Shown here one piece after another: positions 7,138 to 37,541 of a DNA stretch of 37,541 nucleotides (the first letter of the stretch is position 1; each line of letters opens with the position of its first letter). Source of the stretch: a virus. The position numbers and the translations under genes were made by a program. The notes beneath the pieces are model-generated. The model saw only the letters and a program-made list of their open reading frames with translations. It had not been told where the DNA came from and did no database searches. The stretch covers positions 1 to 37,541 of IMG/VR virus record IMGVR_UViG_3300035698_001793. One strand, 5' to 3'.

Positions 7138-7158
7138 GATTATATCTCCTTATTTATC

Positions 7159-7179
7159 CTGTAAGTACTAGCCTTACAG
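7159..7179 (-). promoter_or_regulatory. Inverted repeat just upstream of the scaffold ribosome site
   Basis: Arms ctgtaag (7159-7165) and cttacag (7173-7179) with a 7-base loop can form a hairpin ending about 10 bases before the AAGGAG of the scaffold gene. Its arm sequence resembles the tape-measure leader palindrome at 2145-2162. It could be a protein-binding operator in RNA or DNA; nothing in the sequence distinguishes these. Confidence 0.45.
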
Positions 7180-7184
7180 TATTA

Positions 7185-7231
7185 GTTTTTTCCAAAAATA
7201 AAGAACGTTCTCCCTATTTAGGAAAACGCTC
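7185..7231 (-). terminator. Terminator-like hairpin inside the scaffold/coat leader
   Basis: On the minus strand GAGCGTTTTCC (from 7231) pairs with GGAGAACGTTC (to 7203): 11 pairs with two G-T wobbles and a 7-base loop, followed by the T-rich TTTATTTTTGG. It lies about 35 bases downstream of the predicted start of the 7271-7299 promoter and about 65 bases before the scaffold gene. It could terminate upstream readthrough or act as an attenuator. TTTTCC in the 5' arm can alternatively pair with GGAAAA just downstream. Confidence 0.55.
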
Positions 7232-7270
7232 CAAATGGCGCCTATTTATAATATTTATTTAATTATCGTT

Positions 7271-7299
7271 ATTATACCATTATGTTGCTTATTTGTCAA
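7271..7299 (-). promoter_or_regulatory. Strong promoter for scaffold/coat operon
   Basis: On the minus strand, TTGACA (7299-7294), a 17-base spacer and TATAAT (7276-7271) form a perfect sigma-A-type consensus with an extended TGG before the -10. It overlaps the end of the Com-like gene and points to the scaffold and coat genes. Confidence 0.85.
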
Positions 7300-7489
7300 T
7301 TCTAATTGTTTCCGCTGATCCCATATGTACAGGGTACACGTTTGCTTTATGGCAATGCCCGCAATTAATGTCTAGTTTGATAGTCATAATAACCGCTCCT
7401 GTCGATTTAATTTCAAACGGTAAATCCACATCAGCGTTATACAGAAACCTACCGCAAAACTTACATTTCTGGGATGTGTGCATTTTCAT
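7289..7489 (-). CDS. Com-like zinc-ribbon protein
   Basis: A 66-residue protein starting at ATG 7489, whose A overlaps the last base of the upstream TAA stop. It contains CKFC near the N-terminus and CGHC about 28 residues later, the four-cysteine zinc ribbon pattern of the phage Mu Com family. In Mu, Com binds mom mRNA and activates its translation. Here no mom-like gene is evident, so the role is open; the protein could be an RNA-binding regulator of the neighbouring coupled genes or of the structured scaffold leader. It ends inside the scaffold/coat promoter. Family resemblance seen by eye; function inferred. Confidence 0.65.
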   Translation of the reverse strand: MKMHTSQKCKFCGRFLYNADVDLPFEIKSTGAVIMTIKLDINCGHCHKANVYPVHMGSAETIRIDK

Positions 7490-8691
7490 TACATCTGCCC
7501 CCATACTTTTAACGTCTGGTCGATATCAGCTAACGAACCTTGATATTGAAACTTAGTAGCTGTCATACGTTGGATGTTATCTTGTGCTTTCTGTATCTCT
7601 TTGTTAATAGCATCAACTTGACCTTTTTGGAACGTTTTACGATCTAACATCTTAGCTACAAACGGTTCCATCTTTGTGCTACGCCCATAAGCATCCATGC
7701 ATTTCAATAAATCAGATTGCGTTGGAATATACATCTTAATTCCTCGACCTTTAGCAATACCAACGAAGAACTCGCAACTTGGTCTTTGTTTCTCGTATTC
7801 GCCACCAACCGCCATATCAACACCATACAAACTAATTTCGTCAAACCCTTCAAATATCGCTAATGCTATCATGTAACTCACTGAATTAGTGAAATACCCT
7901 ATACCGCTAGGATCTAACTCGCCTATCATCGCATTAACTTCATCCCACGGATATTTTATGCTCATCGGTATATCATCGTAATGTTCTTGCATATAAACCG
8001 GGTACGGGCATTTTACTAACCAATCTATCCTTTTCATTTCGGGTTTATGCGGAACTTTGGTTTTCCTGCACGCTTCATTATTACATTCAAACCATCGTGT
8101 TGCTCTAGGATGATTGTTCCAATGGTCGTTCAATCCCCATATCTCCCAACTTGGATCGTCATATGGTGCAAATTGATGTGTCATAGCAGTTCCTACTATA
8201 GCTACCTTTTTAACTTTAGTCTTGCGTAGTTTAGCTTCACATTCAGCAATCGTTTTCCTAGCCTTTGTATGTACAATCTCTAACGCATCAGCATCTTCAA
8301 ACCCATCGAATTTATCGGCTATATCTTGACGGTGTTGTTCAGGTGTTTTAGGCATACCTTTTACAGCTATTGTACGCATATAGTTAGCGTTTTCATCGGC
8401 TATTTCTTTAAGCGTACTATTCGTAATTGAGTCAACCGTAGCTTGTCTTGTTACAGTATCAGCCTTTTTTACTTCCTCGATTTTAATCCTATTATTTAAT
8501 TGTTCAAGTATATATTTCCTGCCTTTATCGCCTATACCCACGTTTAATTGTTTATCGAGTTCTTCTGTAGTAAATTGATATGAGTTATCGCAAGCTTCTC
8601 TCATTTGATCGGCAGAAATTTGTCTTTTTTCAGCTTCGCTCATAGCTTTATATGCCTTTGTTCTTTTATCTATCTTTTTATCATCTATCAT
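7489..8691 (-). CDS. Predicted sugar-transferase-like phage protein (DUF115/Maf-like core)
   Basis: A 400-residue protein with three parts. Residues 1-160 are charged and helical. Residues 165-345 form an alpha/beta core beginning with a glycine-rich strand-loop (VKKVAIVGTAMTHQFAPYDD), followed by PSWEIWGLNDHW, a FTNSVSYMIALAIFEGFDEI helix-strand and ISLYGVDMAVGGEYEKQRPS, ending with KGRGIKMYIPTQSDLLK. The C-terminal 55 residues are a probable coiled coil. The core pattern is widespread in phage head regions and resembles the DUF115/6-hydroxymethylpterin-type fold shared with Maf sugar transferases, but I cannot assign a catalytic residue. The start overlaps the CMP-sugar synthetase stop (ATGA), suggesting the two products work together. 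Function is inference. Confidence 0.5.
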   Translation of the reverse strand: MIDDKKIDKRTKAYKAMSEAEKRQISADQMREACDNSYQFTTEELDKQLNVGIGDKGRKYILEQLNNRIKIEEVKKADTVTRQATVDSITNSTLKEIADENANYMRTIAVKGMPKTPEQHRQDIADKFDGFEDADALEIVHTKARKTIAECEAKLRKTKVKKVAIVGTAMTHQFAPYDDPSWEIWGLNDHWNNHPRATRWFECNNEACRKTKVPHKPEMKRIDWLVKCPYPVYMQEHYDDIPMSIKYPWDEVNAMIGELDPSGIGYFTNSVSYMIALAIFEGFDEISLYGVDMAVGGEYEKQRPSCEFFVGIAKGRGIKMYIPTQSDLLKCMDAYGRSTKMEPFVAKMLDRKTFQKGQVDAINKEIQKAQDNIQRMTATKFQYQGSLADIDQTLKVWGQM

Positions 8692-9464
8692 TTATTTAAT
8701 CCCTTTCGTCTGTTCAAAAAGTATTCCGCTAGTAACATATCATCTTCGGTATCAATATCCCATGCTGATATCTCGTCAATTACATATCCATATCTAAAAT
8801 TGATATCTTCTTGATATATCGCACAAGCACCTGAATACATCGCATCCATAATCTCCAATGACATATCTTTGGTTATCTCTGGTAAACTATCGTAATCAAT
8901 TATGTTAGGGTTGTATATTGTGAACGCTCCGTTTGTCCTGACTGTTGGTTCCATCATGGTCATATGTTCAGGCATACCACTTAATCCAAACGGACTTATC
9001 AACCGTTGCATCCTAATATCTACATATTGAATGTGTACCAATTCAGTTGATTTAACTTTCGTAACAGATGTTAAAGACTTAGTATATTTTTGATTTACGA
9101 ATTTCTCAATTGCATCGTCTACTTGCCACGTTTGTACTAATGGAGATGTACACCATAAATTAATTACATAATCATATTTATCGTGTTTTAACATTTCCTT
9201 TAACGCATGAGATTGTACTGCTCCACCATATGCGTGCGGTAATGCTAATACATACGGTCTATCTATTACATACGCCCCTGCTTGGTCTGCTAGACCTTTT
9301 ATAATATCGCATTCAGTACTAACATAAACCGCATCAATATGTTTGGATTGTATGCCAATATCAATCGCCCATTCAACTAACGTTTTCCCCGCTACCATTC
9401 GTCTGTTCTTGTTAGGTACTCGGTTGCTGGTTCCTTTAGCTTGAATTAACGCTGCTATTCTCAT
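8688..9464 (-). CDS. Acylneuraminate-type cytidylyltransferase (CMP-sugar synthetase)
   Basis: A 258-residue enzyme predicted to activate a sialic-acid-like or other 2-keto sugar acid with CTP. Evidence: an N-terminal nucleotide-binding motif (IQAKGTSNRVPNKNRRMVAG, the A-R-x-x-S-x-x-x-P-x-K-N type), the central NLWCTSPLVQ (T-S-P-L) motif, and the C-terminal AWDIDTEDDMLLAE, typical of the NeuA/KdsB-like family with its metal-binding D-I-D. Length is close to the family's usual 220-250. It overlaps the preceding and following genes by 4 bases each, so it is cotranslated with the 400-residue sugar-transferase-like gene. The sugar cannot be read from sequence. Placement inside the head module suggests virion or host-surface modification. 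Confidence 0.88.
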   Translation of the reverse strand: MRIAALIQAKGTSNRVPNKNRRMVAGKTLVEWAIDIGIQSKHIDAVYVSTECDIIKGLADQAGAYVIDRPYVLALPHAYGGAVQSHALKEMLKHDKYDYVINLWCTSPLVQTWQVDDAIEKFVNQKYTKSLTSVTKVKSTELVHIQYVDIRMQRLISPFGLSGMPEHMTMMEPTVRTNGAFTIYNPNIIDYDSLPEITKDMSLEIMDAMYSGACAIYQEDINFRYGYVIDEISAWDIDTEDDMLLAEYFLNRRKGLNK

Positions 9465-12116: not shown

Positions 12117-13370
12117 TTACATAAACGACTTGGCAGCCGTCATCCTTCGGTTTTCCATCTCATCTTCATACGCATATCGTAACGCATCAATTAGATGGTT
12201 GAACTTATCAACTGGATCACGTAATACATTCCCGTCTTTATCTTCTCGATATTTATATTGTTGAAACTCGTTCTTTGCGTTCTGACATTTAGTATCGATA
12301 ACAATGTTCAATCCTCGTAACCATTCTACCCCAAAATTAACGCTATCTTTCCCTTTTTTAGCTTTCAAGGCGTTCATACCTAATGTCCGTAACTTGGAAA
12401 TACTCTTTGGTTCTGCACTATCACATACCACATATTCTTTACCAAACAGCTTAGTACCCTCTGTGTATAAATCTTCGTTAGATAGTTCACGTTCGTAAAC
12501 CTCGTCTAAGATATACAACGTTTTAATGTTCTTATCATAATGACCTCTGACAATAGCAGCTGGTTCAGCAAACCCGAAATCCATACCGTTCCTGAACGTT
12601 TCAAAAGTCTTGCGAACCTCGGTTAAATCTTGCATTGACCAGTTCTTGAATATTACATTACCTAGCACGCCCCAATTACCCAGCGTATAAACTTCATGAT
12701 AATACTCGTCTGTTTCATCTTCTAATAACGCAATATCCCCATCATCTAAAAAACGGAGATTATCTTTATAAGTTGTTTTCATAATACTAACTTTATCATC
12801 AGTATAAGATGTTTTCTCATCATCCCATTTACCGAAATATTCAGTAAATATCCAATGGCTTTTTAATATCGGGTTGAAACTCATCATCAACCGTTTATGT
12901 ACTTTAGATTTACCTCTTAACCTACGTTGTAACTGCCGAACATCGTTCTGTAATACCTCGGTAGCTTCTTCAATCCATATGTCAGTTAATACGCCTTTTA
13001 TCGGTGTTATACTCTTTACCTTCTCAACATCATCTAACCCAACAAACAATATCTGGAACCCATTATCACACGTTATTTTCATATCGGATTTATTAATCTT
13101 GAAATACTTGATTAACCCGAATCTAGTTATAGTTTTACAAATCTCGTTGAACATACTATTATGAATCGTCTTCTGCACGTTCCTAACACATAAATAATTA
13201 TGCCCGCCTGATGCCATATCCATAATACACCTTTGAGCAACAAACACGGATTTACCGGATGCACTACCACCGTAATATATCTGTGTTGGCGTTTCATCGT
13301 TCAAATATGGTATATAACATTTATTAAACACTTTACTTTTAATTTTTAAATCAATCGTCATCTTCGTCAA
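12117..13370 (-). CDS. Terminase large subunit
   Basis: A 417-residue packaging ATPase/nuclease. The N-terminal domain carries a Walker A motif (YYGGSASGKS, about residue 33), then VLTDIWIEEATEV as the Walker B with its catalytic Glu, and SFNPILKSHWI as the coupling motif. The nuclease domain contains GMDFGFAEPAA (RNase H-like first Asp), a VVCDSAEPKSI second Asp and the C-terminal FNHLIDALRYA with the third Asp. Size and motifs match the SPP1/PBSX-like TerL group that packages by a headful mechanism. Overlaps the small subunit by 20 bases. Confidence 0.95.
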   Translation of the reverse strand: MTKMTIDLKIKSKVFNKCYIPYLNDETPTQIYYGGSASGKSVFVAQRCIMDMASGGHNYLCVRNVQKTIHNSMFNEICKTITRFGLIKYFKINKSDMKITCDNGFQILFVGLDDVEKVKSITPIKGVLTDIWIEEATEVLQNDVRQLQRRLRGKSKVHKRLMMSFNPILKSHWIFTEYFGKWDDEKTSYTDDKVSIMKTTYKDNLRFLDDGDIALLEDETDEYYHEVYTLGNWGVLGNVIFKNWSMQDLTEVRKTFETFRNGMDFGFAEPAAIVRGHYDKNIKTLYILDEVYERELSNEDLYTEGTKLFGKEYVVCDSAEPKSISKLRTLGMNALKAKKGKDSVNFGVEWLRGLNIVIDTKCQNAKNEFQQYKYREDKDGNVLRDPVDKFNHLIDALRYAYEDEMENRRMTAAKSFM

Positions 13371-13779
13371 TTACTTCAACTGTAATTTTTGTATCGCCTA
13401 TCTGTTCAATCGTTTGTTTATCCCTCCACAATTCAGGTTGTCTATTTTTCAACCAAAAAGCAACCGCCCCGGTATCTGGTGGATAATGTTTAATAGTTTC
13501 TACTATCATTTCTTCACCATTATTATTGAATATCTTATCTTCTGGATGTTCATATCCTTTAGCCCTATGATACAAACTTTCTGCTATTTCAGCATCAGCT
13601 ATTGTCTTACCTCTTTTTATGGACTCTAAAAATTCAGGATGAGCAATCTTCCAATTATTAATAGTTGACTCATCCACATCGAAATTATCGCCTAATTGTT
13701 TATCAGTAGCACCCAACAAACAATATTTATAAGCTAACTTATTATATTCTATTTTATATTTCGTTGGTGCTCCTGCCAT
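13351..13779 (-). CDS. Terminase small subunit
   Basis: A 142-residue protein; start set at ATG 13779 because AAGGATG-type ribosome site lies 9-12 bases upstream and the ATG nine bases earlier would overlap it. Residues 5-55 form a helix-turn-helix (YKYCLLGATDKQLGDNFDVDESTINNWK), followed by a helical segment containing ESLYHRAKGYEH and the conserved PPDTGAVAFWLKNRQPELW motif typical of Gram-positive TerS. The C-terminus is acidic. It recognises the packaging site on DNA and stimulates the large subunit encoded next. Confidence 0.92.
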   Translation of the reverse strand: MAGAPTKYKIEYNKLAYKYCLLGATDKQLGDNFDVDESTINNWKIAHPEFLESIKRGKTIADAEIAESLYHRAKGYEHPEDKIFNNNGEEMIVETIKHYPPDTGAVAFWLKNRQPELWRDKQTIEQIGDTKITVEVIDEDDD

Positions 13780-13807
13780 TACCCACACATCCTTTTATTT
13801 GTAAAGT

Positions 13808-13852: not shown

Positions 13853-15445
13853 TTATTTATTGTACATATCAACTAACGTTTCTGCTCCCATATCATTAAC
13901 TTTCAATACAAACGCATTAAACTCATCCATGCTCTTTTTACCGTTTATGAAATTAGTAACGTTCTCTTTTATGAAAGTATCTAACGGTGTCATTATTTCT
14001 TTCTTAGTTTCGTTATCAGCTTCATTCAACACTACTGCTGGTATCGCATATGTATAAACATTATCACCATACACTTTACCCGCTGGAGCCCATAACCTAG
14101 CACCATCAAACCATCTATCATTGTAGTATTGTACATCGGTAAACACTTTAACCCAGTTCGAGTTTTCGCCTATTCCGTACATTTCATTTATTAGAGTTTT
14201 GAACGCATCTGTCTTTTGCACGCCTACTGATGTATTTCCAAATTCGCCACTTGCTAGTTGTTTAGTGGTGATACCTTCAACACCCCAATATAATAAATCA
14301 TGACTTGCTTGTTTATCATACGTCCAATCTAACATAGCTAATATATTATCTAATGATTCGGTCTTAGCAGATACAACTGATCCCGTTGTACTGAATCTAG
14401 ATTTACCCGCCCAACCATAAAACTTACCGTTATAACTTGGTGGTACAAACGCTTCAAATTGTCCGTTAATACCGTTCTCTTTCAACCCATTATTATGAGT
14501 TGGTGCGTTCATCATATTATCAACCCAGAACTGACAATCGCCTATCTTAGCATCTGCATACCATTGTGGTTCAGGATAAGCGGACCATTCAGGTGTTAAT
14601 ATTCCTGCATCAACTAACTTCTTGAAAAACAATATCGCATCTTTATAATTATCAGTTGCTACCGGATTAACAAACACTTTAGCGTATTGATCGTAATATG
14701 GGAACTCTATCAATGATGTTCCGAAACTATACGATAATAAGTTCAGATCTAATATACCGTTTCTATTAGTCCATATTGGTGTATCTGCATTAGCTTGCAT
14801 TTTCTCAAGTGTATTATACAAATCATCAAACGTTGCAAACTCGGTTGTATCAGCTAAATCTGTTCTGATAACTCCACCTAAACTACTTGTTGGATTGTAA
14901 TTTCTAACCGTTGAAGCGAAATATATCTTACCATCAGATGATGTAATTGCTCCTTTGTATTCTTCGTATTTATCTAACCACCCCGCATAATGTGGCAACT
15001 TATCCAAATTATCAGATAATGATATTAACAACCCTTTAGGACCTATCTCTTTAGCTAACATGAAATCAGGTGTATATGATTCATGGAACAAATCTTGATT
15101 CCCGATATTGATTATATCAGGTAAATCCCCGCCTGCTACTCTAACAGATAATTTATCCATGTAAACATCAGGTGGTACCATGATCGGTTCAATTACCATG
15201 TTCCCCGCTGCACCTAACATATCATAAACTACTAACGGATTACCATATTGTATCGCCCCTGATTCTCTCATCATCCACGTTACAGTTGGTGTTTCCTCAA
15301 CCTCATCAACTACTTCTTTAGTCGGTTCTGCGGTCTTAACCGCTGGTTTTACCGTTGGTGTATCAACCTCTTTAACAGTTGCACACCCTACCATAACCGA
15401 TACTAATAACATTATAGCTATTACTATACTTAACATTTTCTTCAT
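13853..15445 (-). CDS. ABC importer substrate-binding lipoprotein (YtcQ/LplA-like)
   Basis: A 530-residue extracellular sugar-binding lipoprotein. The start is ATG 15445, since an AAGGAG lies 9 bases before it; the ATG 18 bases upstream contains that site. Residues 1-20 are a lipoprotein signal peptide (basic KK, hydrophobic core, VMVGC with Cys21), followed by a Pro/Thr/Glu-rich tether of about 35 residues. The mature domain shows the large family-1 binding protein pattern: DLPDIINIGNQD, GLLISLSDNLDKLPHY and later DGKIYFASTVRNYNP, and a C-terminal lobe. This class serves LplB/YtcP permeases in oligosaccharide uptake. It has its own promoter (15502-15529). Substrate not predictable. A phage lipoprotein role in superinfection exclusion is an alternative. 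Confidence 0.88.
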   Translation of the reverse strand: MKKMLSIVIAIMLLVSVMVGCATVKEVDTPTVKPAVKTAEPTKEVVDEVEETPTVTWMMRESGAIQYGNPLVVYDMLGAAGNMVIEPIMVPPDVYMDKLSVRVAGGDLPDIINIGNQDLFHESYTPDFMLAKEIGPKGLLISLSDNLDKLPHYAGWLDKYEEYKGAITSSDGKIYFASTVRNYNPTSSLGGVIRTDLADTTEFATFDDLYNTLEKMQANADTPIWTNRNGILDLNLLSYSFGTSLIEFPYYDQYAKVFVNPVATDNYKDAILFFKKLVDAGILTPEWSAYPEPQWYADAKIGDCQFWVDNMMNAPTHNNGLKENGINGQFEAFVPPSYNGKFYGWAGKSRFSTTGSVVSAKTESLDNILAMLDWTYDKQASHDLLYWGVEGITTKQLASGEFGNTSVGVQKTDAFKTLINEMYGIGENSNWVKVFTDVQYYNDRWFDGARLWAPAGKVYGDNVYTYAIPAVVLNEADNETKKEIMTPLDTFIKENVTNFINGKKSMDEFNAFVLKVNDMGAETLVDMYNK

Positions 15446-15501
15446 TATTTGCGACTCCTTCATACTTTTTATTTTCTTTTTTAGCGCCTTTTATACTTCG
15501 T

Positions 15502-15529
15502 ATTATACTCTTTTACTACTAATTGTCAA
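15502..15529 (-). promoter_or_regulatory. Promoter for the substrate-binding lipoprotein gene
   Basis: TTGACA (15529-15524), a 16-base spacer and TATAAT (15507-15502) on the minus strand, between the second permease and the substrate-binding gene. It would supply extra transcript of the binding protein over the permeases. Confidence 0.8.
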
Positions 15530-15538
15530 TTATGCTTA

Positions 15539-16420
15539 TTACCCTTTCAAACTACCTATCATAAACCCGCTAATAAAATGTTTCTGTAATAACGGATAAA
15601 TACATAACACTGGTATTATACTGCATAACGCCATTGCCATTTTAATAGCACGTTCTAACCCTATCCCATCATGTTCGGTTGCTGCTCCTATCACCCCTTC
15701 CATGCTACCTCGCATATTCCCTACCACTATATATTTCCGTAATACTATCATCAACGGTTGTTTATCTGCACTAGTTAAATACATCAACGCAGGGAAATAA
15801 CTATTCCAATATCCCACAAACGCAAATATAGCTACTACCGCAAATATAGCTTTTGATAACGGGACCATAACTTTAGCGTATATCCACATATGTCCTGCTC
15901 CGTCTATCTTAGCAGCTTCAATTAAACTAATCGGTATCTGTTTGAAATTAGTTCTAAACAATATCAAACTCCAAGCACTTAAAGCTGGTGGTATCACTAT
16001 CGCCCAGATTGTATCTAACAACCCTAAATTCTTAATAACTAAAAACATCGGTATTATCCCACCACTGAAAAACATCGTAATTACGAAAAAGGTTGTAAAG
16101 GTTTTTTTAGGTTTAAACTCTTTAGTTATCAACACATAAGCAGGCAACGAACAAATTACTAACGTTAATATCGTACCTAACCCCGCATACATAAAACTAT
16201 TGAAATATCCTCGCCATATTGTACTATTCCGTAATATTATCTTATACGCATCTAACTGAAACCCGATCGGATATAACGTAACCTCACCCCTAGCAATTGC
16301 AAACGTATCACTCACCGATACAGATATCATATACAGAAACGGATATACGAATATCATTAATAATAAAACCATCAACGATATGTTCAGAATGTCGAATAAC
16401 CCTGTTTTAGTTTTTACCAT
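15539..16420 (-). CDS. Carbohydrate ABC transporter permease (YtcP/LplC-like)
   Basis: A 293-residue inner-membrane protein with six predicted membrane segments, starting with the N-terminal hydrophobic helix LNISLMVLLLMIFVYPFLYM. The EAA loop that contacts the transport ATPase is intact at about residue 190 (EAAKIDGAGHMWIYAKVMVP), and the C-terminus has the class-typical HFISGFMIGSLKG ending. It matches the LplC/YtcP group of carbohydrate (CUT1) permeases in length. Its ATG overlaps the stop of the small inserted gene (TTATGGTAA), reproducing the arrangement at the end of the first permease. It is followed by the binding protein gene. No ATPase gene is present in the window. Confidence 0.92.
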   Translation of the reverse strand: MVKTKTGLFDILNISLMVLLLMIFVYPFLYMISVSVSDTFAIARGEVTLYPIGFQLDAYKIILRNSTIWRGYFNSFMYAGLGTILTLVICSLPAYVLITKEFKPKKTFTTFFVITMFFSGGIIPMFLVIKNLGLLDTIWAIVIPPALSAWSLILFRTNFKQIPISLIEAAKIDGAGHMWIYAKVMVPLSKAIFAVVAIFAFVGYWNSYFPALMYLTSADKQPLMIVLRKYIVVGNMRGSMEGVIGAATEHDGIGLERAIKMAMALCSIIPVLCIYPLLQKHFISGFMIGSLKG

Positions 16421-16425
16421 AACCC
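16413..16425. repeat. 13-bp direct repeat flanking the inserted small gene (copy 1)
   Basis: tttaccataaccc here and at 16766-16778 are identical, 353 bp apart. Each copy holds a gene end (G-L-W-stop) overlapping the next start codon. Deleting one copy plus the interval would fuse the first permease directly to the second. Confidence 0.85.
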
Positions 16426-16746
16426 GTTTAGTAATCTAGTATTACAACCTTTTGCAACTCGCATTGTAGCCTCTGATAAGTTAAGCACTTCAGAATACTC
16501 ATAGTAATATCTCCCTTTTCTAATTACACCGTTAGAATGAATCCCCGTTTGATATAACCCGATTAATAAATCTCGCAATTCTTTACCATGTTTGGCAACA
16601 CCATTTTGCCAAACTGCAAAATCTTCTAAATCATTAACGGTGGTTGAATTTTTAATTAATATTTGATGCAGTCTATATAAATTGTTAATTGTACTCTTGT
16701 TTTTGCTTTGTTTTTTATACCATTTTTTTAATTCTTTTTTTGTCAT
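16414..16746 (-). CDS. Unknown small protein inserted between the two permease genes
   Basis: A 110-residue, basic, soluble protein with start at ATG 16746, eight bases after AAAGGGG; an in-frame ATG at 16773 overlaps the permease stop but has no ribosome site. The N-terminus is Lys-rich (KKELKKWYKKQSKNK), followed by two helical stretches and a tyrosine-rich segment (RKGRYYYEYSEVLNLSEA). No family, cysteine cluster or HNH motif is recognised. It has the TGAAAGGGG ribosome module shared with the phage's small early genes, not with the permeases, and lies between two copies of a 13-bp direct repeat. It looks like a phage gene inserted into a transporter operon. Whether it regulates the transporter is unknown. 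Confidence 0.75.
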   Translation of the reverse strand: MTKKELKKWYKKQSKNKSTINNLYRLHQILIKNSTTVNDLEDFAVWQNGVAKHGKELRDLLIGLYQTGIHSNGVIRKGRYYYEYSEVLNLSEATMRVAKGCNTRLLNGLW

Positions 16747-16765
16747 TTTAAACGCCCCTTTCAAA

Positions 16766-16778
16766 TTTACCATAACCC
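16766..16778. repeat. 13-bp direct repeat flanking the inserted small gene (copy 2)
   Basis: Second copy of tttaccataaccc, at the 3' end of the first permease gene; see 16413-16425. Confidence 0.85.
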
Positions 16779-17645
16779 ATGCCCTACTCGTTTAGCACCA
16801 TAATTAGCAGCCATCAATAACCCGAAATTAATCACTGAATTAAATAACCCAACTGCTATTGCGTAACTGTAATCCATTGATAATATCCCTCGCCTATAAA
16901 CGTATGTTGAAATTACATCAGCGGTTTCATAAGTACCCGGATTATACATCAAAAACACTTTCTCAAATCCTATGTTCATCAACCGCCCAACCGCTAAAAT
17001 AAACAATATCGCTATAGTTGGCATTAAACACGGTACGGTAATGTATCTAATCATCTGTAATCTATTAGCCCCTTCGATACTAGCGTGTTCGTATAGTTCG
17101 GGATTAATACCCGCTAACGCTGCCACATAAATAATGCTCGACCACCCCATACCTTCCCACACTGACGAACCTACATATAACGATCTAAACCACCCTGATT
17201 CTTGAAAAAATAACTGTACTGGCATCCCTAACCTCGTTAACGTTTGGTTCACTACACCCCTTGAAGTTAACATCTCTATCATAATACCAACTACTATAAC
17301 AGTAGATAGGAAATGCGGTACATAACTAATAGATTGTACTAACCGTTTAAATTTCCGTTGTCGAAGTTCGTTCAACATTAACGCAAATAATATAGGTGCA
17401 GGGAACGCTATCAATAACATATAAACATTTAAAACTATTGTGTTGCGTACTATCCGGCTGAAATAAGGATCCTTGAAAAACTGTATAAAATACTTGAAAC
17501 CTACCCATGAAGTACCGTATAACCCGCCTACTATATCATATCTACGAAACGCTAATATTAACCCGCTCATCGGGATATAACAGAATATTAAAAACAATAT
17601 TGTAGATGGTATTATCATTGCGTATAACTCGGTTTTATTTTTCAT
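16767..17645 (-). CDS. Carbohydrate ABC transporter permease (LplB-like)
   Basis: A 292-residue inner-membrane protein with about six membrane segments, first at residues 8-30 (MIIPSTILFLIFCYIPMSG) followed by the class-typical FRRYD and WVGFKYFIQFF motifs. The EAA-type loop (YEHASIEGANRLQMIRYITV, about residue 186) is kept, with His in place of the first Ala after Glu. Length and the LW C-terminus match the LplB group that pairs with YtcP/LplC permeases. ATG 17645 follows AAAGGGA and is two bases after the stop of a 26-residue membrane peptide gene, suggesting coupled translation. In bacteria this class often lacks an adjacent ATPase gene and uses a shared MsmX-type ATPase. Confidence 0.92.
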   Translation of the reverse strand: MKNKTELYAMIIPSTILFLIFCYIPMSGLILAFRRYDIVGGLYGTSWVGFKYFIQFFKDPYFSRIVRNTIVLNVYMLLIAFPAPILFALMLNELRQRKFKRLVQSISYVPHFLSTVIVVGIMIEMLTSRGVVNQTLTRLGMPVQLFFQESGWFRSLYVGSSVWEGMGWSSIIYVAALAGINPELYEHASIEGANRLQMIRYITVPCLMPTIAILFILAVGRLMNIGFEKVFLMYNPGTYETADVISTYVYRRGILSMDYSYAIAVGLFNSVINFGLLMAANYGAKRVGHGLW

Positions 17646-25863: not shown

Positions 25864-26271
25864 TCAGAAAGGAAGTCCATCCCCTGAATCTTCCGAATAA
25901 TCTGTAAACCCGTTTGTATCTGACATTTCATCTTTAGGCGTTTCGCTCTTAGGTGTCAAAAACTCAATCTCATTAACGTTTATTTCTGTGTAACTGCGTT
26001 TCTGTCCGTCTTTCTCGTATTGGTTGATGTTCAGTTCACCGCATATACCTACCTTAGCACCCTTTTTAAGATACTGCATTGCTAGTTCTGCGGTCTTATT
26101 CCATGCTTTACAGTTAATGAAATCTGTTTGATCTTTCCCAAACTTACGCTTTACCGCTATTGAGAAAGTGGCTATTGTATGTGTTCCGGCTTGCTTTTGT
26201 TCGGGATCTCTCGTTAGATTCCCTATGATACTAATAATATTAATTATTTCCACTCTCCTTAATCTTTCCAT
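25864..26271 (-). CDS. ssb: Single-stranded DNA-binding protein (SSB)
   Basis: A protein of up to 135 residues with the SSB OB fold: IISIIGNLTRDPEQKQ, FSIAVKRKFGKDQTDFINCK, then AWNKTAELAMQYLKKGAKVG, and the acidic C-terminal tip DGLPF for binding partner proteins. The first ATG (26271) lacks a ribosome site, while AAGGAG lies inside the frame ten bases before ATT-AAT-ATT, where SSBs usually begin, so initiation may use a rare start codon (ATA or ATT). It would coat ssDNA in replication and recombination. Overlaps the SbcC-like gene. Confidence 0.92.
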   Translation of the reverse strand: MERLRRVEIINIISIIGNLTRDPEQKQAGTHTIATFSIAVKRKFGKDQTDFINCKAWNKTAELAMQYLKKGAKVGICGELNINQYEKDGQKRSYTEINVNEIEFLTPKSETPKDEMSDTNGFTDYSEDSGDGLPF

Positions 26272-29626: not shown

Positions 29627-29818
29627 CTAATACGTTGATTTACTAACTGGGTTATTTAAGATACCCAGCAATACTAATATTTGCAATACTGACGTTATAG
29701 TTACCTTGATTGTTTCTGCTAGGTCTGGTGCTATGGTTCCTGATGCCAATAAAATAGCGATTATTTGTGATACTATTGCTATATATATTACTGGCGACTT
29801 CCATCTTTGTTGTGTCAT
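29627..29818 (-). CDS. Holin
   Basis: A 63-residue membrane protein: MTQQRWKSPVIYIAIVSQII followed by a second hydrophobic segment (VTSVLQILVLLGIL), a polar turn between and a short polar tail. Two membrane helices, small size and a place directly before the endolysin fit class II holins (phi-LC3-like family). ATG 29818 is preferred as AAGGAG lies upstream. The ATG overlaps the end of the HNH gene (ATGA). Confidence 0.85.
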   Translation of the reverse strand: MTQQRWKSPVIYIAIVSQIIAILLASGTIAPDLAETIKVTITSVLQILVLLGILNNPVSKSTY

Positions 29819-30501
29819 GTTATACACTCCTTAAATTTAATATTTTTAACATGGTCTTTATAATACTTACCTTTTAAAATTTTGCATATAGTAGAACAGT
29901 CAACTTTTGTTTGTTCAGCACAATCATTAATTGAATTATACAATCTAGTATGTCCATCAGGGAAAGTAGCGATAACTTTTTTTGTTTTTTTCTGTGCTTG
30001 CATTTGTTGTTTATAGGTTACAAACATACAATTATCTTTATTATATAATAAACCGCTACCCTTTATATCTTTATCTATACAATATTTTTTATCTGAGTTT
30101 TGCCATAACTCAAACCCTTCTAATTGTTTGATGTCAGTTTCAAATTTTGAGTAGTCGTGCCAATCAGAACAAACAGTAACACCTTTTCCACCGTATACAT
30201 GATAGCTTTTATTCCTTTCGTCATAGCACCTCCTTAACATTTCATACCACATTCTATATAGTTTCTGGTCTGAACATTTTTTGCCTGAATTATACCCAAC
30301 ACCAAATACTTCTGGCACATATTTATCCCTAACTTGTTTTAATTTAAATCTGCCATATAGGCAGTTAATATATCTGTTAGTTTCTCTTATATGTACCTTA
30401 TATAGATAATGTGTGTCTACTTTTATGGTTGTCTTTTCCGTTATTGTGAAGGTTAACCCCTGTCTATTTATTATAGTTTCACCAATATGATTTGTTGTCA
30501 T
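29815..30501 (-). CDS. Free-standing HNH homing endonuclease with NUMOD domain
   Basis: A 228-residue protein. Its centre has LYRMWYEMLRRCYDERNKSY then HVYGGKGVTVCSDWHDYSKF and DIKGSGLLYNKDNCMFVTYK, the typical HNH/AP2-associated pattern (R-C-Y ... Y-G-G-x-G-V-x-V-C ... W ... D-N-C-x-x-V-T). The C-terminal 55 residues (TFPDGHTRLYNSINDCAEQT ... CKILKG) form a NUMOD1-like DNA-binding domain. It is inserted between the kelch fibre gene and the holin, with its own promoter (30521-30549). Such endonucleases move by gene conversion at a homing site and usually have no role in the phage cycle. Confidence 0.9.
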   Translation of the reverse strand: MTTNHIGETIINRQGLTFTITEKTTIKVDTHYLYKVHIRETNRYINCLYGRFKLKQVRDKYVPEVFGVGYNSGKKCSDQKLYRMWYEMLRRCYDERNKSYHVYGGKGVTVCSDWHDYSKFETDIKQLEGFELWQNSDKKYCIDKDIKGSGLLYNKDNCMFVTYKQQMQAQKKTKKVIATFPDGHTRLYNSINDCAEQTKVDCSTICKILKGKYYKDHVKNIKFKECIT

Positions 30502-30611: not shown

Positions 30612-31922
30612 TTATGTACTACTCAGTGTTATAGTGCCGCTAATTCCATCTGATGTAAATGCTGTTACTATTAAAACACCCTCTTCCGTTAATGTGGTTG
30701 TTGTATCAGCTTCAATGAAAATATCATTCAACCAATAATCAACATCTAATGCAATTACATTTCCCGCGTCATATGTACCTAAATAAAATAAATCATCAAT
30801 CGGTATTTTACATAAGCCATCATGCGAACTAGCACCACCAAATATATGTAATATTCCATGATACACATAACATTGTGCATGAATACTAACATCATATAAT
30901 CCGTTTATAGTAGGTCGATACCACGTATCAGTTGCAATATTATAAACTTGAATATATCCCGCATCGGAATAATTCATAGCCGCTATAATATGATTTCCAT
31001 ATACACCACAGCAATTAGCACTTGAACTATAATTCAAACTTGATAGTGCTGAACTCCAAGTTTCTGTACTTATAGTGAAAGAATATAATCCTGTACTTTC
31101 AGTTGCTCCCGAACTTCTACCACCAACTGCATATACAATACCTTTATGAGCAACCATATCATGTATGAATTTATTGCCAGGCATATCAGCTAGTGTTGCA
31201 TCCCAACTATCGCCATCAATATTATAAGAATAAAAGGTTTTAGACGATGTCGAACCCGAACTATAACCACCCGATAAATATACAATTCCATTCAATACAC
31301 AAACCGCATGATACGCTCTATTGGCGGGCATAACTGTTCCCGCACTCCAACTATTACCCGATATTGAATAAATCTGAACTGCGTCTGTATAACCACTCCC
31401 AGTATCACCACCGAAACAATATATGTTATCACCCCACACAACCGCTCTATTGGCTTTTACCCCAACCGTCATAGTTGCTAATACAGTTTTTGTTTCTGTC
31501 ATTAAATCATACGATGTCATAGTATTTTGAGTTGCCCCCGCCGCTCCTGTTCCGCCTATGATATACATTAAATTATCTTTGATAGCCATTGCACCACGTT
31601 CAATTCTATCTCCAAACGTATTCTGTGAAGTCGCCTTGTAATCATCATCGGTTGCTATTTCTGGTATTGACCTATTCATCATTATGGCTGGTTTATAATT
31701 AGTCCAAGTAATAACGCTATCGCCACCACCGCCCCCAGCGTTCCAAGCCGCACCATCATAAGAATATAACAACTCATCAACCGTATTATAATACAATTGT
31801 CCTACCGTTGGTGCTGGTGAAGTTGGTGCAGTTGTTGAAGGTGGTGCCACGACAATATCATTCGCCATCTTAACGAAAGTTACCGCATCATCAGCTATAT
31901 GTTTAGTATTAATTTTACTCAT
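30612..31922 (-). CDS. Kelch-repeat receptor-binding fibre/tip protein
   Basis: A 436-residue protein. ATG 31922 overlaps the upstream stop (ATGA) and starts MSKINTKHIADDAVTFVKMA, an N-terminal attachment module shared with the two upstream genes. After a hinge and glycine spacer (GGGGG) come five to six kelch-like blades, each with a G-G pair and a later W (MYIIGG, IYCFGG, VYLSGG, VYAVGG, LHIFGG), which together make a beta-propeller. A C-terminal beta domain follows (GNVIALDVDYWLNDIF...). The pattern suggests a virion tip that binds host surface sugars. The gene is last before the HNH insertion and the lysis genes. Confidence 0.85.
   Translation of the reverse strand: MSKINTKHIADDAVTFVKMANDIVVAPPSTTAPTSPAPTVGQLYYNTVDELLYSYDGAAWNAGGGGGDSVITWTNYKPAIMMNRSIPEIATDDDYKATSQNTFGDRIERGAMAIKDNLMYIIGGTGAAGATQNTMTSYDLMTETKTVLATMTVGVKANRAVVWGDNIYCFGGDTGSGYTDAVQIYSISGNSWSAGTVMPANRAYHAVCVLNGIVYLSGGYSSGSTSSKTFYSYNIDGDSWDATLADMPGNKFIHDMVAHKGIVYAVGGRSSGATESTGLYSFTISTETWSSALSSLNYSSSANCCGVYGNHIIAAMNYSDAGYIQVYNIATDTWYRPTINGLYDVSIHAQCYVYHGILHIFGGASSHDGLCKIPIDDLFYLGTYDAGNVIALDVDYWLNDIFIEADTTTTLTEEGVLIVTAFTSDGISGTITLSST
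31840..31922. repeat. 83-bp repeat: fibre N-terminal module (copy 1)
   Basis: Bases 31840-31922 align without gaps to 32022-32104 with about ten mismatches (roughly 88% identity). Both encode the fibre start, M-S-K-I-N-T-K to V-A-P-P, and mark a tandem duplication of the attachment module. Confidence 0.9.
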
Positions 31923-32104
31923 TGTTCCAACCACTCCGAACCGCTCCATGCGTTTAGTTTATCAGTAACCGTATTGTATTCAAGTTGTCCTGTATTTGGT
32001 GAAGTTGATAAAGCTGTTGTTGGTGGTGCCACGACTATATCATTTGCCATCTTAGCAAAAGTTACGGAATCATCCGCAAAGTGTTTAGTATTAATTTTAC
32101 TCAT
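31919..32104 (-). CDS. Short fibre fragment: N-terminal attachment module only
   Basis: A 61-residue frame beginning MSKINTKHFADDSVTFAKMA, then PNTGQLEYNTVTDKLNAWSG and ending WLEQ. It aligns closely to the first 60 residues of the kelch protein, but stops where that protein continues to its kelch domain. It is either an intact mini tail-adaptor or a remnant from swapping receptor domains. Its stop overlaps the kelch ATG, and it has a GAAAGGATAG ribosome site, so it is probably translated. Confidence 0.7.
   Translation of the reverse strand: MSKINTKHFADDSVTFAKMANDIVVAPPTTALSTSPNTGQLEYNTVTDKLNAWSGSEWLEQ
32022..32104. repeat. 83-bp repeat: fibre N-terminal module (copy 2)
   Basis: See 31840-31922. 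Confidence 0.9.
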
Positions 32105-36821: not shown

Positions 36822-37541
36822 TATGTTATCCCCTGCGCTCTTAATGCGGTTACAATTTGTTTACCAACATAATCGCCTACACTATGATCCGTTAATGGAT
36901 TGTTGAAATTAATAGTAATGTTGCCTGATAACATTCTTTGTCCGTTCGCCATAGCCCTACTGTCATTGATAGCAGAATTATTAATAGGTTTCATTGCATT
37001 AATCTTAACCGCTAATGTATCCATCCATCCTGTGTTGTTTTCTAATGGCAATACAGCTTCTTTCCCTTTTTCGCCTGCTTCAAGTAATGTTGCTGCGTTT
37101 ATGATACCGCCTTCTGCTAGTCTTGGTATACTTAATTGAGTAAGTTTACTAATATTAACGCCCGGTATTTTGTTTATTAACGTTATCCCTCTATTAATTG
37201 CTCTAATAAAACTATTAATCTTACGTTCTGCAAATCCAATGATAGAATTAACAACCTTTTTAAAGGCTCCGCTTACTGTATCCCCAATTGATGTACCAAT
37301 ACTTGAAAACTTTTCTTTTATCGTATCCCAAATCCCGCTGAAAAACTCACCAACTGCACTAAAATTACTTTTAATATTCTCCCAACCTTGTTTAAATATA
37401 TCAGTAAAAAACGTTCCAACTGCACTAAACTTTTCTTTTATCGTATCCCAAATCCCGCTGAAAAACTCACCAACTGCACTAAAATTACTTTTAATATTCT
37501 CCCAACCTTGTTTAAATATATCAGTAAAAAACGTTCCAACT
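36821..37541 (-). CDS. Tape measure protein, C-terminal part (open at window end)
   Basis: The continuation of the gene at 1-2125 across the end of the circular map. The frame is open from 37541 down to the TAA at 36821-36823. It contains one complete 120-bp repeat (37330-37449) and part of another, then helices KKVVNSIIGFAERKINSFIR and INRGITLINKIPGVNISKLT, the conserved LAEGGIINAATLLEAGEKGK-EAV region and the tail end SGNITINFNNPLTDHSVGDY. The last 75 residues could be mistaken for a separate short gene. Start: none here; the protein begins at 2125. Confidence 0.92.
   Translation of the reverse strand, partial: VGTFFTDIFKQGWENIKSNFSAVGEFFSGIWDTIKEKFSAVGTFFTDIFKQGWENIKSNFSAVGEFFSGIWDTIKEKFSSIGTSIGDTVSGAFKKVVNSIIGFAERKINSFIRAINRGITLINKIPGVNISKLTQLSIPRLAEGGIINAATLLEAGEKGKEAVLPLENNTGWMDTLAVKINAMKPINNSAINDSRAMANGQRMLSGNITINFNNPLTDHSVGDYVGKQIVTALRAQGIT
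37330..37541. repeat. Identical 120-bp tandem units in the tape measure gene, right part
   Basis: 37330-37449 and 37450-37541 are the same 120-bp unit (second copy cut by the window end at 92 bases) with no differences. The second copy is also the terminal repeat shared with 1-92. The following copy at 93-120 carries one change (ttg for tcg) relative to the identical pair. Confidence 0.95.

Follow-up and report, generated by a model that had tools for sequence, protein, structure and literature searches.

A predicted CUT1-type sugar importer, with no ATPase gene of its own, beside the terminase genes of a small phage lineage

The DNA considered here—'the window'—is the whole of IMG/VR virus record IMGVR_UViG_3300035698_001793, positions 1 to 37,541, and so 37,541 nucleotides in length. 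On its minus strand lie three genes, all full length and open throughout, for two membrane permeases and a solute-binding lipoprotein. A sequence-only reading of this DNA had placed these three genes correctly and had described them as complete; its gene list probably erred in the start of the lipoprotein, which we now put at 15445, and it overlooked a small ORF between the permeases. The features of the locus are these:

12117–13370, minus strand: terminase large subunit, the conserved neighbor of the cassette (Pfam Terminase_3, E 5.5e-48)
13351–13788, minus strand: candidate terminase small subunit, so called from its position directly before the large subunit; no Pfam match
13853–15445, minus strand: solute-binding lipoprotein of the AlgQ/YtcQ class, 530 aa (signal peptide and lipobox from the sequence; AF2 model)
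15502–15529, minus strand: perfect sigma-70/A-type promoter, TTGACA-N16-TATAAT, ahead of the lipoprotein gene, recognized from sequence only
15539–16420, minus strand: permease 2, LplC/YtcP-like, 293 aa (Pfam BPD_transp_1, E 5.5e-07; EAA loop)
16413–16425, minus strand: direct repeat GGGTTATGGTAAA, copy 2, at the start of permease 2, read from the sequence
16414–16773, minus strand: 119-aa ORF of no known family, between the permeases
16766–16778, minus strand: direct repeat GGGTTATGGTAAA, copy 1, at the end of permease 1, read from the sequence
16767–17645, minus strand: permease 1, LplB/AlgM1-like, 292 aa (Pfam BPD_transp_1, E 3.6e-13; AlgM1 profile match; EAA loop)

Both permeases score above the Pfam cut-off for BPD_transp_1; by hydropathy, five and six membrane helices are predicted in the two proteins. 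A profile made from permease 1 of the window and of L001 matches AlgM1 (4tqu_M) over its whole length, with E 5e-90, and relatives of both AlgM1 and MalF appear among its matches. The EAA loops, previously said to be intact, are indeed so: EHASIEGANRLQMIRYITVP and EAAKIDGAGHMWIYAKVMVP each follow the consensus EAAX3GX9IXLP, with the conservative changes IXVP and VMVP; in permease 2 of a related phage, L132, glutamine takes the place of the EAA proline. Two different BPD_transp_1 permeases with EAA loops, accompanied by a putative sugar-binding protein whose predicted fold matches, place the set among the CUT1 type I importers. An ATPase encoded alongside, another mark of such importers, is absent: there is no PF00005 match in the window record, and no frame with both Walker A and LSGGQ in that record or in its phage relatives. 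The Walker-A gene at 26240 was tried as the missing ATPase and ruled out, being SbcC/RecF-like. Absence of the ATPase had been claimed from the start, as had the irrelevance of the 26240 gene; it does not count against membership in the subset of CUT1 importers that share an ATPase, because it is absent near most of the cellular relatives, too.

The signal peptide of the lipoprotein ends in SVMVGC, the lipobox that had been noted earlier. Its frame can be extended upstream to 15463, the start originally listed, but the most likely start lies six codons downstream, at 15445, since the longer frame encloses a GGAG ribosome site that L001 and L003 have conserved. The protein has no match in Pfam, PHROG or NCBIfam. 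Its AlphaFold2 model (62-sequence alignment, pLDDT 78.7, pTM 0.79) resembles Smon0123, AlgQ2, Blon_2347 and FusA in Foldseek comparisons, with TM-scores of 0.65–0.70, and all four bind oligosaccharides. The phage lipoproteins lack a DPNGNG-type loop that many of their cellular relatives have, and so the phage ligand cannot be inferred from those relatives.

The window contains two perfect consensus promoters, against 0.12 expected by chance in the whole of it. One stands ahead of the lipoprotein gene, and is perfect in three of the four phages in which this region is visible (the window, G001 [L002] and L003, with L132 the exception). The other stands ahead of the scaffold and capsid genes. 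There, in the leader (7138–7299, minus strand, in the window; 19156–19313 in L002), the perfect promoter is followed by a strong hairpin and a T-run, terminator-like in appearance. The stem sequences differ between the window and L002, and the pairing is kept in both; this hairpin, for which Rfam has no match, is possibly an attenuator or a small RNA. No Rfam family is found anywhere in the window.

The 119-aa ORF is a latecomer. The 13-nt direct repeat GGGTTATGGTAAA brackets it and leaves both gene junctions intact. L003 and L132 have nothing between the two permease genes, which share 7 nt where they meet, and so the ORF is a later insertion. G001 has other small ORFs at the same permease–permease junction. 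Insertions of this kind, with no break in either permease frame, would fit continued selection on the permeases.

A search for the cassette in related phages, proposed by the sequence-only reading, finds the complete trio in two other IMG/VR phages, G001 and L132. The first of these, of 29.9 kb, comes from co-assembly 3300035698, from Ace Lake, Antarctica (PMC8542988), and its permease 1 is 81% identical to that of the window; in L132, permease 1 is 64%, permease 2 52% and the lipoprotein 62% identical. Two further contigs from one sample, L003 and L093, hold the permeases, lipoprotein and head block between them, with no exact overlap, and are probably one phage. A fifth contig, L095, is cut at its edge and retains the last 242 residues of the lipoprotein, just before the terminase. 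In every cassette-bearing phage the cassette adjoins the terminase, which is 62–81% identical to that of the window, and the block of terminase, portal and capsid genes lies beside it. Among 18 viral contigs with terminases at 47–54% identity, several of them short or with little upstream sequence, there is no match to the cassette. Because the trio recurs beside the packaging genes of kindred viruses, we regard it as long established and presumably functional in this lineage, and not as an error of assembly.

The genes that the window and G001 have in common are those of the head/packaging block and the cassette, together with a weak match around the endolysin, whereas the early genes differ; the cassette thus travels with the packaging block. 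Upstream of the cassette the genes change from phage to phage—a RusA-like gene and a DNA methylase in L003 (2881–4113), a ParB-methylase in L001 (8631–9869) and a PAPS-reductase-like gene in L132 (794–1486), as read from their sequences—and this border therefore looks like a point of recombination. The ends of the window, 1–212 and 37330–37541, overlap in tape-measure repeats, with 92 bases identical, as would fit a circularly permuted genome that is close to complete and of uncertain exact length, although IMG/VR classes the record as linear.

A few other genes of the window deserve mention in passing. Between MuF and the scaffold gene lie a CTP_transf_3 gene with weak resemblance to PseF (8688–9464) and a conserved gene for 400 aa that belongs to no known family (7489–8691). 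The pair is found there in the window, G001 and L093 alike, and is possibly a virion or surface sugar module. An I-HmuI/NUMOD-like homing endonuclease (29815–30501) adjoins the endolysin gene, and among the late genes is a Kelch-repeat protein (30612–31949), possibly a tail or receptor-binding protein.

Between phages, synonymous change is at or near saturation (pS 0.63–0.86), and dN is 0.11–0.21. The dN of the cassette is about that of the terminase and mostly below that of the portal, and cassette identities track terminase identities across the phages. The cassette genes, both permeases included, are under strong purifying selection. Across the deepest phage split, though, the relative rates within the cassette are the reverse of those in nearly all cellular operon pairs. 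Of 2,701 pairs of cellular LplB-LplC-SBP operons, just 40, many of them very short alignments, have a lipoprotein better conserved than permease 2, and where the permease 2 identity is 50–56% (n=109), lipoprotein identity averages 34.7%, with an sd of 5.1 and a maximum of 49.2. Phage pairs with permease 2 identities of 51–52% have lipoproteins that are 62–65% identical, although all of these pairs use one deep branch, that of L132, and are not independent, any more than the cellular pairs are. At closer range (75–77%), the phages lie within the cellular spread. That the lipoprotein should be the better conserved across the deepest phage split, contrary to nearly all cellular pairs, suggests a fixed ligand or partner; as an explanation of its unusual constraint, such a partner is no worse than general feeding.

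Where the genes came from is apparent from the permease 1 tree, in which, among 84 sequences, the three phage sequences included form one clade (100/100). Its sister group (100/96) is the pair of Clostridia genomes G092 and G364, and its stem measures 0.9 changes per site. On this tree the cassette is a single acquisition from a Clostridia-type LplB-LplC-SBP operon. These two operons are the nearest relatives known to us, with permease 1 at 53–57% and permease 2 at 45–48%, and G364 also provides the best cellular match to the lipoprotein (E 1.1e-91, about 32% identity). The G364 cluster includes a GntR/LacI-type regulator, an FAD oxidoreductase, and DHDPS-family and RraA-like proteins, with an apiosidase nearby; the phage set, in contrast, has neither the aldolases that accompany the G364 operon nor such a regulator. 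By motif scan, an ATPase lies within about 10 kb at just four of 68 cellular loci, and the genomes G092, G364, G004 and G330 have a single OB_MalK-type ATPase apiece, located away from the operon. In Bacillus subtilis, MsmX energizes YtcQP-YteP (PMC5730181), and MsmX-type ATPases are exchangeable between species (PMC7658222). The original suggestion of a CUT1 pair with its lipoprotein, plausibly using a host ATPase of the MsmX type, gains from the protein families, the fold, the tree and the ATPase-less layout in cells. Situated in a viral genome, and descended by the permease 1 tree from a cellular metabolic gene, the cassette is a candidate set of auxiliary metabolic genes.

YtcQP-YteP and YesOPQ of B. 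subtilis, both energized by MsmX (PMC5730181), are organized like the phage set, with two permeases and a lipoprotein, EAA loops for a shared ATPase, and no ATPase gene of their own. They are cellular, however, chromosomal and tied to pectin use, whereas the phage set lies by the terminase without linked sugar-degrading enzymes. In the alginate importer of Sphingomonas sp. A1, AlgQ2-AlgM1-AlgM2-AlgS, AlgM1 resembles phage permease 1 over its whole length and AlgQ2 has the fold of the lipoprotein, albeit at only about 15% identity; that system encodes its ATPase, AlgS, and the phage set does not. Among phages, the closest analogy is the PstS protein of cyanophages, also an ABC binding protein and thought to aid uptake during infection. 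PstS binds phosphate and comes alone; here both membrane subunits are added, and the predicted cargo is a sugar.

That such a set is rare in phages, as the sequence-only reading supposed, is borne out by the searches. None of 50,697 phage records has a match to the lipoprotein, plasmid records give matches of only 22–27%, and a library of viral structures gives one weak match, to a record named Inoviridae. A scan of cellular genome contigs with the lipoprotein gave no prophage copy, and the stretches examined in three sampled same-phylum genomes that have related terminases (49–55%) lack the cassette. No phage CUT1 permease–receptor set came up in our literature search, outside which most subscription papers lay. 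Phage-encoded binding proteins are already known, and what appears to be new is a phage with both permeases and the receptor.

How might the cassette work? We lean, by a modest margin over even, toward a phage CUT1 oligosaccharide importer, captured once, fixed in a small lineage, and driven during infection by an MsmX-type ATPase of the host. The lipoprotein, at the surface of the infected cell, would catch an oligosaccharide and pass it to the permease pair; the shared host ATPase would drive the permeases through their EAA loops; and extra carbon, or a needed sugar, would enter the cell as infection proceeds. A more particular version, which we advance only tentatively, makes the cassette a fixed core component whose lipoprotein, expressed from a promoter of the capsid class, keeps to a single ligand or partner peculiar to the phage, instead of serving general nutrition, and acts at the cell surface, with nothing but the ATPase borrowed from the host. 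Rather doubtful, in our opinion, is that the lipoprotein is the part selected, with the permeases simply its partners, and that it acts on a fixed partner—a glycan of the host surface, or the receptor or injection route of another phage—in superinfection exclusion or surface change. Its private, perfect promoter and its reversed order of conservation would suit such a role, but a lipoprotein acting alone would not need the kept EAA loops, nor the strong purifying selection, of both permeases.

Other explanations fare less well than an importer that serves infection generally. Feeding the phage's own sugar use, glycosylation for example, is improbable: the CMP-sugar synthetase-like gene of the head block (8688–9464) does share a conserved block with the cassette, and G001 and L093 have retained it, but it is only 48% identical to its G001 counterpart, against 74–81% for the cassette, no glycosyltransferase was identified, and nothing links the ligand to that synthetase-like enzyme. 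It is equally improbable that the genes effect lysogenic conversion, widening the diet of a host in which the phage lies dormant. The promoter ahead of the lipoprotein gene is of host type, as this would call for, but neither a tyrosine nor a serine integrase occurs in any of the phage records, which are partly fragmentary, and the searched genomes gave no prophage, leaving aside plasmid-like ones. Least credible of all is a chimeric contig or host contamination, the former having been named at the outset as a possible refutation. Some deposited phage records do contain related permease genes that look like host DNA—the matches do not exceed 42%, the records lack annotation, and we set them aside, the two examined in detail having proved to hold host-type genes. 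The present cassette, in the same order and with the same terminase junction, recurs in independent contigs at 52–85% identity, diverging in step with the terminase, and base composition shows no step in the window.

Known transport genes of phages, such as cyanophage PstS, usually give the host transporter a single protein. If the importer reading is right, this lineage of phages brings the complete set of membrane subunits, receptor included, and borrows only the motor, exploiting the interchangeability of CUT1 ATPases. With three genes, a standard ATPase, and growth or binding as a read-out, the system is a tractable one. Phages of this kind would choose which sugar the infected cell takes up, or what the cell displays on its surface.
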